A model generated the notes under the pieces. It did not search any database. It saw only the letters and a list, made by a program, of their open reading frames with translations, and had not been told where the DNA came from. Below, piece by piece: positions 9,874 through 60,065 of a stretch of DNA of 64,000 nt. Every line of letters begins with the position of its first letter. Position 1 is the stretch's first letter. The position numbers and the translations under genes were made by a program. Source of the DNA: Planctomycetota bacterium (GTDB taxonomy: Bacteria > Planctomycetota > Planctomycetia > Pirellulales > UBA1268); the NCBI GenBank assembly GCA_016872555.1, contig VGZO01000001.1:124001-188000 (forward strand), read 5' to 3'.

Positions 9874-11111
9874 TCCGTGCCCCCGCCCCCAGCCGACGGT
9901 CGACGGCGCCGAGTGCGACGCTGGTTGTCCGTCGACAAAGCCCTCTGAGGCCAGTGTCCACCGGTCCGCTGGTGCCTGGCGCGACCGCGGGAAACGCCGA
10001 GGGTTTCCCGGCTCGCCGTCGGCCGCATCCGGCTGCCGATCACCTTTTCCAGGGTCTGCTGGCGGCCGTTCGCGGGTTTGTGGTCGCGGCGCTGCTGGCC
10101 CCGCTGGCCGGCGCCCAGACCACCGACCGGATCGTGACGACCGACGGCACCTTGACCGGCAAGATCACCGGTCTGAGCCCCGACGAGGTGCAGCTCGAGG
10201 ATCGGGCCGGCGAGATTCGCCGCGTGCCGATCGATCGGCTCAAGGAGGTGCAGTTCGCCGGCGAGCCGCCGTCGTTGCGGTCGGCACGGGGAATGCTGGC
10301 GCGGGGGCGCGCCGCCGAGGCCCTCGCGGAGATCGCCAAGGTCGAGGCCGCCGAGCTCGATGGCGTCGAGGCTCCGATCCTCGCCGACATGGACTACGTC
10401 AAGGCGGTCGCCGCCGGGCGGGTGGCCCTGGCCACCGGCGCCGATCCGCGCGACGCCGGCAGGTTGGTCAACGAGTTCCTCGGCAAGCACGCCTCCGGCC
10501 ACCATTTCTACGAGGCCCAGGAGTTGCTCGGCGACCTCCTCGCCCGCGCAGGGCGCGGCGACAACGCCCTCGCGGCCTACGCGCTGCTCGCCAAGGGGCC
10601 GCCGGCCTTCAAGGTCAGGGCGGCCGCGGCGCGGGCACGGATGATGCTCGAGCAGCGGAAGTTCGCCGAGGCGCTCACCGAGTTCGACGCGGCGCTGGCG
10701 GTCGATGCCGGAGACGATGCCGGCAGCGAGCAGAAGCGCGCCGCCGCGCTGGGGCGGGCGCGGTGCCTGATCGGACTGGGGCGGAACGACGATGCGATCG
10801 CCGTCGCCCGTGGCGCGATCGCGCAATCCAACCCCGAGGAGGGGGCGACGCTGGCGGTGGCCTACAACACGCTGGGCTCCGCCTACCGGGCCACCGGCGC
10901 CAACGACCAGGACGCCCTGATCGCGTTTCTCACCGTCGATTTGGTCTACAACGGCTCCCCGGAGGCCCACGCCGAGGCGCTGTGGAACCTCGCGGAACTG
11001 TGGGAGCGGGGGCAAAATCCCGAGCGCGCGCGTGAAGCCCGCGGCACCCTGGAAGCGAGTTATCCCGGCAGCCGTTGGGCGAAGCAGGCCGCCACCCCGA
11101 AAGCGTCCTGA
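9870..11111 (+). CDS. Secreted TPR protein, second gene of the ExbB/ExbD operon
   Basis: A 413-aa protein. After an Arg/Pro-rich N-terminus comes a hydrophobic segment, GFVVAALLAPLAGAQTTD, resembling a signal peptide with an AGA cleavage site. A small beta domain follows (RIVTTDGTLTGKITGLSPDE, VPIDRLKEVQF), similar to the short SH3-like N-terminal domains seen in secreted planctomycete proteins. TPR-like helices fill the rest (FYEAQELLGDLLARAGRGD, LGSAYRATGANDQDAL). It starts inside the stop of the preceding TPR gene and ends 85 bases before the ExbB homologue. A role with the Exb complex is inferred from context only. Confidence 0.72.
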   Translation: MIRAPAPSRRSTAPSATLVVRRQSPLRPVSTGPLVPGATAGNAEGFPARRRPHPAADHLFQGLLAAVRGFVVAALLAPLAGAQTTDRIVTTDGTLTGKITGLSPDEVQLEDRAGEIRRVPIDRLKEVQFAGEPPSLRSARGMLARGRAAEALAEIAKVEAAELDGVEAPILADMDYVKAVAAGRVALATGADPRDAGRLVNEFLGKHASGHHFYEAQELLGDLLARAGRGDNALAAYALLAKGPPAFKVRAAAARARMMLEQRKFAEALTEFDAALAVDAGDDAGSEQKRAAALGRARCLIGLGRNDDAIAVARGAIAQSNPEEGATLAVAYNTLGSAYRATGANDQDALIAFLTVDLVYNGSPEAHAEALWNLAELWERGQNPERAREARGTLEASYPGSRWAKQAATPKAS

Positions 11112-55215: not shown

Positions 55216-56913
55216 ATGGAACATCCCTCGATTCCCGTCGCCCACCGGGCGGTGGCCGATCGCCACGCGGGGAAGCCCGCGCTCCGCTGGAAGGAACACG
55301 GCCGCTGGCGCGAGATCTCGTGGCGCGAGTACCGCGCCGCCGCCGACGCGGCCGCCGCCGGTCTGGTCGCCCTTGGAATTGCCCCCGGCGATCGGGTCGC
55401 GATCCTCGCCGAGAACCGCCCCGAGTGGCTCGTGGCCGACATCGCGATCCTCTCGGCCGGGGCGATCGACGTGCCGCTCCATGCCACGCTCGCCGCCGAG
55501 CAGGTCGGCTTCCAACTCGCCCACTCCGGCGCCCGCGCCGCGATCGTCAGCACCCCGGCTCAGGCGGCGAAGATCGCCGCGGTCGTCGACACGCTGCCCG
55601 ACCTCGAATGGGTCGTCGTCATCGATCCCGGCGCCGGTCCGCTCGCCGGCAAGCAGGTCATGTCGTGGGCCGGCCTCTGCCAGCGCGGCCGGCTCTCCGC
55701 GGCCGACTGGCGCGCGGCCGTGATCGCGCGCGAGCGGGCGATCACGCGCTCCGACCTGGCGACGATCATCTACACCAGCGGTACGACCGGCATCTCGAAG
55801 GGGGTGATGCTGACCCACGGGAATCTTCTCTCCAACGCCGAGGCCGCCCTCTCGATCGCCGGCCGCAAGCCCGACGACACGACCCTCGCCTGGCTGCCCT
55901 TGAGCCACATCTACGCCCGCACCTGCGACCACACGATGACGATGCTCCACGCCGAGACCGTGGCGTTTGCCGAGTCGCAGGAACGGCTGGTGGCCAACAT
56001 CGGCGAGACCTGGCCCCACTGGATGAACGGCGTTCCGCGGTTTTACGAGAAGCTCTGGTCGGCGCTCGCGGCACTCGAGCCGGCGGCCCGGGCGCAGCGC
56101 CTCCGTCTTGTCGCCGGTCCGCGGCTCCGCGAATTCGGCGCCGGCGGCGCCGCCCTGCCGGTGGCGATCGCCGAGGGGTTCGCGGCGGCGGGGATCCCGA
56201 TCCTCCAGGGCTACGGTCTCACGGAAACCTCCCCGATCATTTCGTTCAACACCCCCGACTCCAATCGCAACGGCACCGTCGGCCGCCCGCTGCCCGGCGT
56301 GGAGGTTCGGATCGCCGCCGACGGCGAGATCCTCACCCGCGGCCCGCACGTGATGCGGGGCTACTGGAAAGACGATGCCTCGACGCATCTTGTCCTCGAC
56401 GCCGACGGCTGGTTTGCCACCGGCGACGTCGGCGCGCTCGATGCCGACGGTTACCTGCGGATCACCGACCGCAAGAAAGACCTGATCGTGACCGCCGGCG
56501 GCAAGAACGTCGCCCCGACGGCGCTCGAGGCCCTGCTCGTGGCCGATCCCTGGATCGACCAGGCGGTGGTGTTCGGCGAGGGGCGGCCGTTCGTGGGGGC
56601 GCTGCTCGTGCCGGCCCTCGACCAGCTTCGAGCGAAGGCCGAGCAGCTCGGCTGCGGGTTCGACGTCGAGGGGGAACGGATCGTGACGCCGGCGCTGGTC
56701 GAGTTCATCGCCGAGCGGGTCAATCTGGCGATGCGGGTGGTCGGGCAGCCGGAGCGCGTGCGCGCGTTCGTAGTGCTGTCGCGGCCCCTCGACTTCGCCC
56801 GCCAAGAGATGACGACCACGCTCAAGATCCGCCGCGCGTTCGTCCTCGAGCGCTTCCGCGACCTGGTCGACGGCGTGTATGCTTCGACACCGGCCGACCC
56901 GACGGGGGTCTGA
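55216..56913 (+). CDS. fadD: Long-chain acyl-CoA synthetase
   Basis: A 565-aa AMP-forming ligase that activates fatty acids for beta-oxidation. The P-loop-like AMP motif YTSGTTGISKGVMLTHGN begins at residue 186. GYGLTETSPIISFN, GRPLPGVEVRIA, WFATGDVGALDADGYLRITDRKKD and the C-terminal lysine region QEMTTTLKIRR follow. The Trp/Asp-rich WLPLSHIYARTCDH segment is typical of long-chain (FACS) types. ATG 55216 follows GGGGAGGAGA, 17 bases after the thiolase stop. The IS630-disrupted gene begins 90 bases downstream. Confidence 0.92.
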   Translation: MEHPSIPVAHRAVADRHAGKPALRWKEHGRWREISWREYRAAADAAAAGLVALGIAPGDRVAILAENRPEWLVADIAILSAGAIDVPLHATLAAEQVGFQLAHSGARAAIVSTPAQAAKIAAVVDTLPDLEWVVVIDPGAGPLAGKQVMSWAGLCQRGRLSAADWRAAVIARERAITRSDLATIIYTSGTTGISKGVMLTHGNLLSNAEAALSIAGRKPDDTTLAWLPLSHIYARTCDHTMTMLHAETVAFAESQERLVANIGETWPHWMNGVPRFYEKLWSALAALEPAARAQRLRLVAGPRLREFGAGGAALPVAIAEGFAAAGIPILQGYGLTETSPIISFNTPDSNRNGTVGRPLPGVEVRIAADGEILTRGPHVMRGYWKDDASTHLVLDADGWFATGDVGALDADGYLRITDRKKDLIVTAGGKNVAPTALEALLVADPWIDQAVVFGEGRPFVGALLVPALDQLRAKAEQLGCGFDVEGERIVTPALVEFIAERVNLAMRVVGQPERVRAFVVLSRPLDFARQEMTTTLKIRRAFVLERFRDLVDGVYASTPADPTGV

Positions 56914-57003
56914 TTCGGCAAGGGTCACTGGCTAGCGTGGGTAACGCCGCGGCGGGGCATCGTGGCGTCATCGATCGCGTGAACACCGCGGAGGCGATGG
57001 GCG

Positions 57004-57097
57004 ATGGATGTCCTACCGGATCCAGGTTTATTGCCGGATACCTGGCGAATCGACGAAACGCCCGATGGATGGACGCTGTGTTGGCGGCCTCCGGTTA
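57004..57097 (+). pseudogene. 5' fragment of a small membrane-protein gene split by an IS630 element
   Basis: The frame starts at ATG 57004, preceded by GGAGG at nine bases, and encodes MDVLPDPGLLPDTWRIDETP, followed by DGWTLCWRPPV. After 31 codons it runs into the left end of the IS element and stops six codons later at TAG 57115-57117. Joining it to base 58235 (removal of the IS and one TA) restores a continuous 189-codon frame, so this is the beginning of the ancestral gene. Confidence 0.75.
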
Positions 57098-58232
57098 CTA
57101 CGGGGAGCATCCAATAGTTGACGTTTTCTATCCGGCGGCGGCCGCGTAGCGGACGTGTTCTTCTTCGAAGAAGTTGCGGACTACGCCAGGCTGATTCTGG
57201 CGGCGGCGGAGGTGTGCTCTGGCGTTTGCCATCATCTGCGACTGATCTCGGGGCCGTTGTCGCCGCATGGCCTGCTTGGTGTCTTGGTTGAGCAACTCGT
57301 CTGGGTTGAGCTCGGGGCTGTAGCCGGGCATGAAGCAGAGCTCGAGGCCCGCCCGCCGCTCCCTCTTGGCTGCGATCCAGCGGGCTACCTTCGCGGCCTT
57401 GTGGGCGGGATGCGAGTCCACGATGAGGATGATCTTCCTGCCGTCGGTGGATCGCAGGAGCCGGGCGAGGAAGCGAATGAAGACATCGGCGTTGAAGCGG
57501 CATGAGAACACCATGAACCAGAGGCGTCCCAGATTGCTGATGGCCGAGATCATGCTGCATCCGAACCGGCGGCCGGTCGCGGGAACGATGGGCGTCTGCC
57601 CTCGTGGCGAATAGGTGCGTCCGACGGTGTCGTCAGACCGGAGCCCCATCTCGTCTCCCCAGAGAATCAGGGCATTCTGGGCCTTTGCCCACCGTTGGAT
57701 CGCCGGGTACTCCTTGTCGAGCCAGGCTTGCACAGCAACCGGATCTCGCTCATAGGCTCGCCGCACCGGCTTCTGCGGCGTGAAGCCCCAATCCTTCAGG
57801 TATCGGCCCGCCGTCCAGACCGAGACCTGCCGACCGGTGTGCGTCTTGATGAGTTCGACAACCGCCTCACGCGTCCAAAGAGCGAACGGAAGTTTGAGTT
57901 GGTCGGGGCACTTGCCTTGGATGATCCGAACGATCTTCGCTTGCTGCTTCGGGGCGATCATTCGCTCCTTCGGCCGCCCTCGCGTCTTTGCAGCCAGAGC
58001 GGCGTCACCACCGCGTTCGTGAGCGTCGAGCCAATTGTTGATTGCCTGGCGTGAGACGCCGAACGTTCTTGATGCGTGGGCCTTCTTCATCCCTTGCGTC
58101 AGCACCGCGTCGATCACGCGGCGGCGAAGGTCTTCTTGGGCTTCAGGCGACAGCGAGCGAGCGTCTTTGTGTGCCATGCACTGATCATAGCGAGGCAAAT
58201 CCCGCAAGTCAACTATTTAATGCCCGGAGTAG
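57098..58232 (-). mobile_element. IS630-family insertion sequence, 1135 bp, with 25-bp imperfect inverted repeats and TA duplication
   Basis: The ends at 57098-57122 and 58208-58232 are inverted repeats matching at 19 of 25 positions. Both begin CTAC at the outside and end AATAGTTGAC inside. TA flanks the element on each side (57096-57097 and 58233-58234), which is the target duplication expected of IS630/Tc1-type transposition. The single transposase gene fills the interior on the minus strand. The element looks intact and is visibly less GC-rich than the surrounding chromosome, suggesting recent arrival. Confidence 0.85.
57128..58177 (-). CDS. IS630-family transposase
   Basis: A 349-aa DDE transposase. 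Its N-terminal helix-turn-helix region (KKAHASRTFGVSRQAINNWLDAH) is followed by a second one with the RGRPKERM linker. The catalytic triad can be placed at D175 (LWGDEMG), D254 (LIVDSHPAH) and E294 (PELNPDELLN), the DDE spacing of IS630 elements. The conserved SPRGQTPIVPATGRR motif is present. ATG 58177 is the likely start; a GTG further upstream adds ten residues. The reading frame is intact, so the element may be active. Confidence 0.9.
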   Translation of the reverse strand: MAHKDARSLSPEAQEDLRRRVIDAVLTQGMKKAHASRTFGVSRQAINNWLDAHERGGDAALAAKTRGRPKERMIAPKQQAKIVRIIQGKCPDQLKLPFALWTREAVVELIKTHTGRQVSVWTAGRYLKDWGFTPQKPVRRAYERDPVAVQAWLDKEYPAIQRWAKAQNALILWGDEMGLRSDDTVGRTYSPRGQTPIVPATGRRFGCSMISAISNLGRLWFMVFSCRFNADVFIRFLARLLRSTDGRKIILIVDSHPAHKAAKVARWIAAKRERRAGLELCFMPGYSPELNPDELLNQDTKQAMRRQRPRDQSQMMANARAHLRRRQNQPGVVRNFFEEEHVRYAAAAG

Positions 58233-58234
58233 TA

Positions 58235-58710
58235 CCAGTGGCATCTACGGGTTGCCGTGCATCCGGCATTTTTTCCCCACATGGCTGTATAGCTGGCGGG
58301 GCCTCGCGGCTGCGTATCTTGGCGTCATGATCGTGTCCGTCGTTGCGGGGCGCACCCTTGGCCGGGAGGGCAATCTCAGCGCCCTGAGTCTCGGTGGCGG
58401 TGCGGCGATGCAGATCGTGTTGACTGCATTGCACTTCTATACATTGCATGAGAAGTATTTGAATGCCCAGCGCTCTGTGATTGTTCACGGGGGTAGCGTT
58501 CGCGTCCCGACCGGGTCGTTTTCCGTCACGTGCTTGGAGACGCTGCGGCTCTGTAGCAAGGGTGCTCGACCCGGACGGGCGTTGCTGAAGTTTCGGGGCA
58601 ACGTCGTCGCCGAGGCTGATTTCGTGGATTTTCCGGGCCTCTCGCAACCGGTAGCCGAGCAACTCCTCGAGGCGGTCAAGGCGCGGCTGGCTTCTGGCCG
58701 GCTCACTTGA
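58235..58710 (+). pseudogene. 3' fragment of the small membrane-protein gene split by the IS630 element
   Basis: This part encodes SGIYGLPCIRHFFPTWLYSW, two membrane helices (LAAAYLGVMIVSVVAG and AAMQIVLTALHFYTLH), and a soluble C-terminal region. The soluble region includes RSVIVHGGSVRVPTGSFSVT and VDFPGLSQPVAEQLLEAV. The soluble part resembles a small PH-like beta domain, but this is only an impression. It lacks its own start and is in frame with the 57004-57097 fragment once the IS is removed. The complete protein would have 189 residues. No function is known. Confidence 0.75.
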
Positions 58711-58802
58711 CGGGCAGAGTGCGGCTCGGTCGTGGCGGCCGTGATCGCCGCGTCGCGATAGCAGACCGTGGTCACAGTGATCCGCCGCTGGATGCGGCGG
58801 CA

Positions 58803-58839
58803 GACACCCCGAAAAAGCCCCGGCTTTTCTCGGGGTGTC
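58803..58839. terminator. Long near-perfect hairpin, probable bidirectional terminator
   Basis: GACACCCCGAAAAAGCC (58803-58819) pairs with 58822-58839 with one bulged base. The A-rich and T-rich central parts and the flanking sequence fit an intrinsic terminator serving the disrupted gene on the plus strand and the 58903 gene on the minus strand. Confidence 0.55.
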
Positions 58840-58846
58840 CGAAGTG

Positions 58847-58872
58847 GGAAAAGGTCATGGATGACTTTTTTC
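58847..58872. repeat. Second hairpin in tandem with the previous one
   Basis: GGAAAAGGTCAT and ATGACTTTTTTCC form a 12-bp stem with one bulge and a two-base tip, a few bases after the first hairpin. The tandem arrangement and the TCATGGATGA core look like a dispersed intergenic repeat unit. Copy number elsewhere cannot be judged from this window. Confidence 0.45.
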
Positions 58873-58902
58873 CACGGACAGATAGACCGCGATGTCGTGG
58901 CC

Positions 58903-59124
58903 TCAGGGCCGGTCGCAGCCGCCATCGAGCTCCGCCGGCCAGACCGACAGGTCGTCGGGCGTGTCGAACGCCCGGTGGAGAGCGGTCAACTCGGCCTCGC
59001 GCTCGTGGGGCGGCAGCCTGGCCCACGCCGCTTTCTCCTCTCCCATCGTGCGGGCGAGAAGGTCGTAGTACCACTCCGGGTATTCGGCATCACCCGCCTG
59101 CTCGGGCGAAGCGGGATCATTCAT
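58903..59124 (-). CDS. Small acidic protein coupled to the nucleotidyltransferase-like gene
   Basis: A 73-aa protein beginning MNDPASPEQAGDAEYPEWYY and containing ARTMGEEKAAWARLPPHERE and AELTALHRAFDTPDDLSVWP. It starts within the stop codon of the upstream gene (ATGA, 59121-59124), so the two are translated together. The composition is acidic and Trp-rich with a helical middle. I recognise no family. A partner-protein or antitoxin-like role is conceivable from the arrangement alone. Hairpins follow its stop. Confidence 0.6.
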   Translation of the reverse strand: MNDPASPEQAGDAEYPEWYYDLLARTMGEEKAAWARLPPHEREAELTALHRAFDTPDDLSVWPAELDGGCDRP

Positions 59125-60065
59125 GGAAGGACCTCGTCGATCGGCGGAGCCACGGCCGCGAGCCGAGCCGGTTCGAGGTTCGCGAGTACGGCAGCCCGTG
59201 ACAACCCGGCTTCATAAATCGTAACGCGGGCCGACGGCGTGAGCGGAGCGGAGGGAAGGCCGTGGCGCCGGGCGGCGGAGACGATGGCATGGTGCTGGTC
59301 GGCGAAGGGACCGGATCGAGGCCAGGGACAGTCTTCGGCTCCCTGCCACCGCCGGTAAAATGCTTTCCAAGTCGATTGGTAGAGGCCGTAGCGACCGCGA
59401 TTGACAGCCTCCCAGACCAGCCGCTCGGCCCTGACCAGGAACTCCAAATGGAGATCGTCGGCCGTGCGATCGACAGCCGCCAGCAGTGGCCGCATGGCGA
59501 TCGCCGCACCGCGTTCGGCGTCTGGTGTGGCCGACCAAGCCCGCCGCAGCGGTTCCACCGCCTGGAGGTGGAGCAGCGCCTTTCCGTCGCCGCGTGCGAA
59601 TGACTGGGCGGCCAACCCGCCGACGATCGGCCAGTCTTTGTCACGATCGGTTTTCTTCATCCGGGTGACGGTGTCCCGATCGGCGAAGTCGGCTTCGGCC
59701 GGGTCGGTCTGCCAAGCCTTCACCCGTGGAGGCTTCCCGAAGAAGTCGAGGTGGTGGTCCGATCCGGTTGCCTCGGTTCGGATGGCCAGATGCGACGTCC
59801 AACCCCCGGCCAGCCACTCTGCTTCCAACGGCGCGCCGAAGATGGAGCGGTAGCGGATGGCCCACGGAGCCAGCCCGCCCTCGCGGCGGGCAAGCAATTC
59901 GCGGAGCATCTCGGCCTGCTCAGGGGGAACGATCCAATCGGAGTCTTTGGTCGTTTGCTGCAGCCCGTACCGCACGCAGGCCATGCCGCTGGTGATGGCA
60001 AAGCGCAGCCCTCCGGACCGAAGATCACGGCGAAAAGTATCGAGGAATTCCAGAGGCGCTTGCAT
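59121..60065 (-). CDS. Putative nucleotidyltransferase-fold protein
   Basis: A 314-aa soluble protein. Residues 22-46 (FAITSGMACVRYG then QQTTKDSDWIV) fit the minimal nucleotidyltransferase motif hG-x(n)-DxD, with G27, D41 and D43. HHLDFFG (D107) would be the third metal ligand in the hDhh form. The rest is mostly helical with many Trp and Arg residues. Such folds occur in AbiEii-type toxins, tRNA-modifying enzymes and uncharacterised proteins. ATG 60065 has no Shine-Dalgarno, but TACACT (minus strand, 60072-60077) lies seven bases upstream, so the message may be leaderless. Fold assignment is an inference. Confidence 0.6.
   Translation of the reverse strand: MQAPLEFLDTFRRDLRSGGLRFAITSGMACVRYGLQQTTKDSDWIVPPEQAEMLRELLARREGGLAPWAIRYRSIFGAPLEAEWLAGGWTSHLAIRTEATGSDHHLDFFGKPPRVKAWQTDPAEADFADRDTVTRMKKTDRDKDWPIVGGLAAQSFARGDGKALLHLQAVEPLRRAWSATPDAERGAAIAMRPLLAAVDRTADDLHLEFLVRAERLVWEAVNRGRYGLYQSTWKAFYRRWQGAEDCPWPRSGPFADQHHAIVSAARRHGLPSAPLTPSARVTIYEAGLSRAAVLANLEPARLAAVAPPIDEVLP

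Follow-up and report, generated by a model that had tools for sequence, protein, structure and literature searches.

In the window (the whole 64,000-nucleotide stretch of DNA analysed here), two coding segments that belong to one gene family flank an insertion sequence of the IS630 family, and a copy of a dispersed hairpin repeat adjoins them. The features are as follows.

57004-57097, + strand: 5′ segment of the interrupted gene (codons 1-31 and base 1 of codon 32); homologue-only profile E 6e-9, profile positions 8-34.
57096-57097: left TA of the duplicated target site, read directly; TA also stands at the ends of independent copies of the element.
57098-58232, - strand: IS630-family element, 1135 bp; its ends are common to loci L023 and L024, and one end is found in L002, L027, L033, L034 and L036.
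57098-57122: left terminal inverted repeat (repeat arms 57096-57122 and 58208-58234).
57128-58177, - strand: intact transposase, 349 aa (ATG at 58177, stop ending at 57128); NCBIfam NF033545, Pfam DDE_3.
58208-58232: right terminal inverted repeat (same pair of arms).
58233-58234: right TA of the duplicated target site, read directly.
58235-58710, + strand: 3′ segment of the interrupted gene (remaining two bases of codon 32 through the stop); homologue-only profile E 3e-18, profile positions 84-173.
58762-58881, + strand: copy of the dispersed repeat, 120 bp, flanked by ATAG at 58758-58761 and 58882-58885.
About 9925-10058, - strand: second copy of the dispersed repeat in the window, flanked by CCAG.

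The transposase scores 219.4 bits against NCBIfam NF033545 (transpos_IS630; cut-off 100) and matches Pfam DDE_3 at 2.8e-36, winged-helix domains are also present, and the DDE triad can be read from the frame as D175 (WGDE), D254 (VDSHP) and E294 (ELNPDE). The terminal inverted repeats are imperfect (27-nt arms including the TA, 78% complementary), but the same difference between left and right ends occurs in relatives with the same ends and is thus ancestral. With a single transposase gene, N-terminal helix-turn-helix domains, DDE_3, terminal inverted repeats and a TA duplication, the element resembles the IS630-Tc1-mariner group and shows no substantive difference from the IS630 family; the 39 residues between the second D and the E lie inside the 34-41 quoted for Tc1/mariner elements (PMC8533490). 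An IS630 identity and an intact transposase had both been proposed by a sequence-only reading of this DNA, and both stand: the first on the above-cut-off NF033545 score, the triad, the TA duplication and the inverted repeats, the second on the 349-aa frame with its DDE residues.

Independent copies confirm the boundaries. Full-length copies in G077 (86% identical) and G027 have identical end bases and are flanked by TA, and one-ended copies at contig ends (contig C15 of the same genome, G006, G027 and G072) show the same end with TA beside it. The transposase is 349 aa long and intact in this genome, G077 and G027, and its dN/dS against relatives (about 0.06-0.14) indicates an element lineage kept functional by purifying selection. 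Relatives of the element that are full length or nearly so (86-95%) sit in genomes without the split-gene family. The second copy in this genome (L002 1501-1608, at the end of C15) is identical over 108/108 bp and TA-flanked; it lies directly after an hsdM-like gene and near the start of the next frame (genes named by reading), and may possibly disable a type I restriction specificity subunit.

Removing the element together with one TA creates a GTT-ACC junction at codons 31/32 and restores a frame of 189 codons, which spans 57004-58710 from an ATG at 57004 to a TGA ending at 58710, with GGAGG read directly 9 nt 5′ of the ATG. Recomputation thus reproduces the rebuilt gene of the sequence-only reading, including the ACC at the junction and the Shine-Dalgarno sequence, start and stop. 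The 5′ part carries an N-terminal beta-hairpin motif (L.PDTW.I.ETPDGW.L) and the 3′ part carries two membrane helices, a beta domain and a C-terminal helix. Since one in three junction phases joins frames, the open frame could have been restored by chance with no real gene behind it. That explanation is refuted by the homology found to the left and right of the junction and has a negligible probability: a profile built from six homologues, with the window sequence excluded, was run against the joined protein and against the window's 862 stop-to-stop frames (minimum length 25 codons), and just 2 of the 862 frames matched, namely the two halves flanking the element, in order. The joined protein scored 100.8 bits (E 5e-30), the 3′ half 62.4 and the 5′ half 32.1.

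Homologues elsewhere are continuous where this gene is broken. Eight matches in six other genomes span nearly all of the profile, and a genome-contig scan yielded two named homologue loci, both in uncultured planctomycete assemblies. The intact homologue in G026 (CAJBCV010000338.1, positions 330-977) aligns to residues 6-183 of the joined protein, across the junction, at 33-34% identity. The lack of any homologue spanning the junction had been named beforehand as the observation that would speak against the rebuilt gene; on searching, uninterrupted homologues cross residues 31/32 in six other genomes (G026, G008, G019, G062, G065 and G066), and a partial homologue in the congener G002, open up to its contig end, crosses them without a break. 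The two halves therefore belong to a single gene family and lie in the right order and the same frame.

The same evidence bears on the assembly. This genome is a 4.47-Mb draft in 162 contigs (the window lies in contig C1) and the element occurs in at least two copies, inside one of which contig C15 ends, so a chimeric contig, joined through the repeated element with flanks from different places, is conceivable in principle. The flanks, however, fit together as the N- and C-terminal portions of a single family, in frame and with the same TA, which two unrelated sites would not yield. As only these two halves match the homologue-only profile, a mis-join is strongly disfavoured and we consider it very improbable. 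The locus is thus almost certainly a single-copy gene, encoding a small membrane protein with two helices, in which an IS630-family transposon entered the TA that straddles codons 31 and 32 and duplicated that TA. Transposition would have been by cut-and-paste, in keeping with what is known of the IS630-Tc1-mariner group, the TA duplication in the split gene arising on insertion.

The split gene is accessory. Its family occurs in 10 of the 72 genomes of the taxonomic family, this genome included; G026 holds three homologues, two of them in tandem, and further partial homologues lie in G063 and G064, besides the congener G002. Among 396 genomes sampled from the order, one more homologue was found, in G211 (L106; G211:C166:21184-21729); it is the sole homologue found outside the taxonomic family, and because it contains an in-frame TAG it may be decaying too. 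A search of this draft genome for a second copy matched only the two halves. Inspection of the homologue loci revealed no conserved gene neighbourhood, with different genes adjoining the homologues, and comparison with congeners G001-G003 recovered neither orthologous flanks of the split gene nor, consequently, an empty site. Directly upstream of the congener's homologue lies an IS110-like transposase frame (L053 3842-4891, - strand; named by reading). Given how patchy the family is among close relatives, loss of the gene is probably easily tolerated.

In searches of Pfam and NCBIfam the joined protein gave nothing above any cut-off, and no Pfam match at E ≤ 1, which bears out its earlier description as unrecognised. 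Among the homologues, one matches DUF3093 weakly (E 0.009), and a search of solved structures by sequence returned no match for the family. The sequence folded was that of the G026 homologue, aligned with the window fragments and the other homologues, in place of the joined window protein. The resulting model (mean pLDDT 76, pTM 0.63) has strands at 12-18 and 21-27 that form a beta-hairpin, helices at 51-72 and 77-103, strands between 107 and 163 and a C-terminal helix at 165-189. This agrees with the two membrane helices and beta domain of the sequence-only reading, and the insertion point, mapped from the model, falls between the beta-hairpin and the first membrane helix.

Structural neighbours of the model include PH, PTB and EVH1 domains at Z 5-6.6. 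The top structural match is EROS/CYBC1 (PDB 8kei_D; Z 8.0 over 136 residues), a membrane protein of eukaryotes that has two helices and a PH-like domain; however, the rmsd is 6.8, identity is 6%, a sequence relationship was not detected and the Foldseek E value is 0.13, the best that Foldseek returned with this model. A viral structure library gave no significant match. Bacteria also have small membrane proteins that combine two helices with a PH-like domain, DUF2244 being an example. Such proteins have a similar order of N-terminal strands, two helices, beta domain and C-terminal helix, but the joined protein differs in having no Pfam match at the E value given above. The model, of middling quality and with weak structural matches, suggests that the product of the split gene was most likely a membrane-anchored PH-like domain, in which a membrane hairpin of two helices would interrupt the barrel and the segments before and after it would both supply strands.

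As the locus now stands, the frame from the native ATG is 37 codons long and ends at a TAG in the left end of the element (57115-57117). Translation from the native start would therefore stop inside the element, and the N-terminal beta-hairpin would be separated from the membrane helices and beta domain with which it appears to pack in the model; on both counts, the split allele is very probably null. Alternatively, the insertion could be of long standing or tolerated, with the 3′ half translated from a start within the element or from the internal ATG of ‘GVMIVSV’ and retaining partial function. The 3′ half is still open, and a 222-codon TTG-start frame begins inside the element, enters that half in frame and runs to the native stop. 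Any such product would, however, lack the hairpin, one of the best-conserved regions in the family, and selection need not be invoked to explain why the element-encoded prefix is open, as that prefix runs antisense to the transposase. We regard this alternative as unlikely.

The insertion is likely to be fairly recent, since no stop codon or frameshift has arisen in either half; both TA copies are present as well. The sequence-only reading had called the insertion young because of its intact transposase and clean TA duplication. The intact transposase, like the open halves, fits recency, but a TA of only 2 bp says little about youth, and in a comparison of one genome per species these features fit a recent insertion and give no date. 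We tentatively put forward, as one possible reading of the whole, that the locus records the recent natural knock-out of a member of an undescribed, patchy planctomycete family of membrane-anchored PH-like proteins with a barrel split by a two-helix hairpin. As an instance of an insertion sequence inactivating a gene the case would be clean and textbook, and the event itself is ordinary; the locus also exposes a small protein family covered by no Pfam or NCBIfam model.

The adjoining dispersed repeat is more unusual than the insertion. It is typically 119 bp long and consists of three hairpins in series, with 10-bp inverted ends (CAG[AC]CCGTGG / CCACGGACAG). Flanking 4-bp duplications, mostly NTAG or NCAG, are perfect in 14 of 35 copies, a number reached in 0 of 10,000 shuffles. 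An Rfam search of 56900-59200 gave no match up to E 1. The TAG-like character of the 4-bp duplications raised the suspicion of an IS701-type partner; the two IS701-like fragments in this genome were considered and lack convincing repeat ends. The repeat has 31 matches in this genome and is matched in 58 of the 72 family genomes, in many at full length and at about 76-98% identity, and of 33 predicted pairs, 6 carry paired changes that set two sequence subfamilies apart. The repeat has the look of a MITE or REP-like population mobilised in trans.
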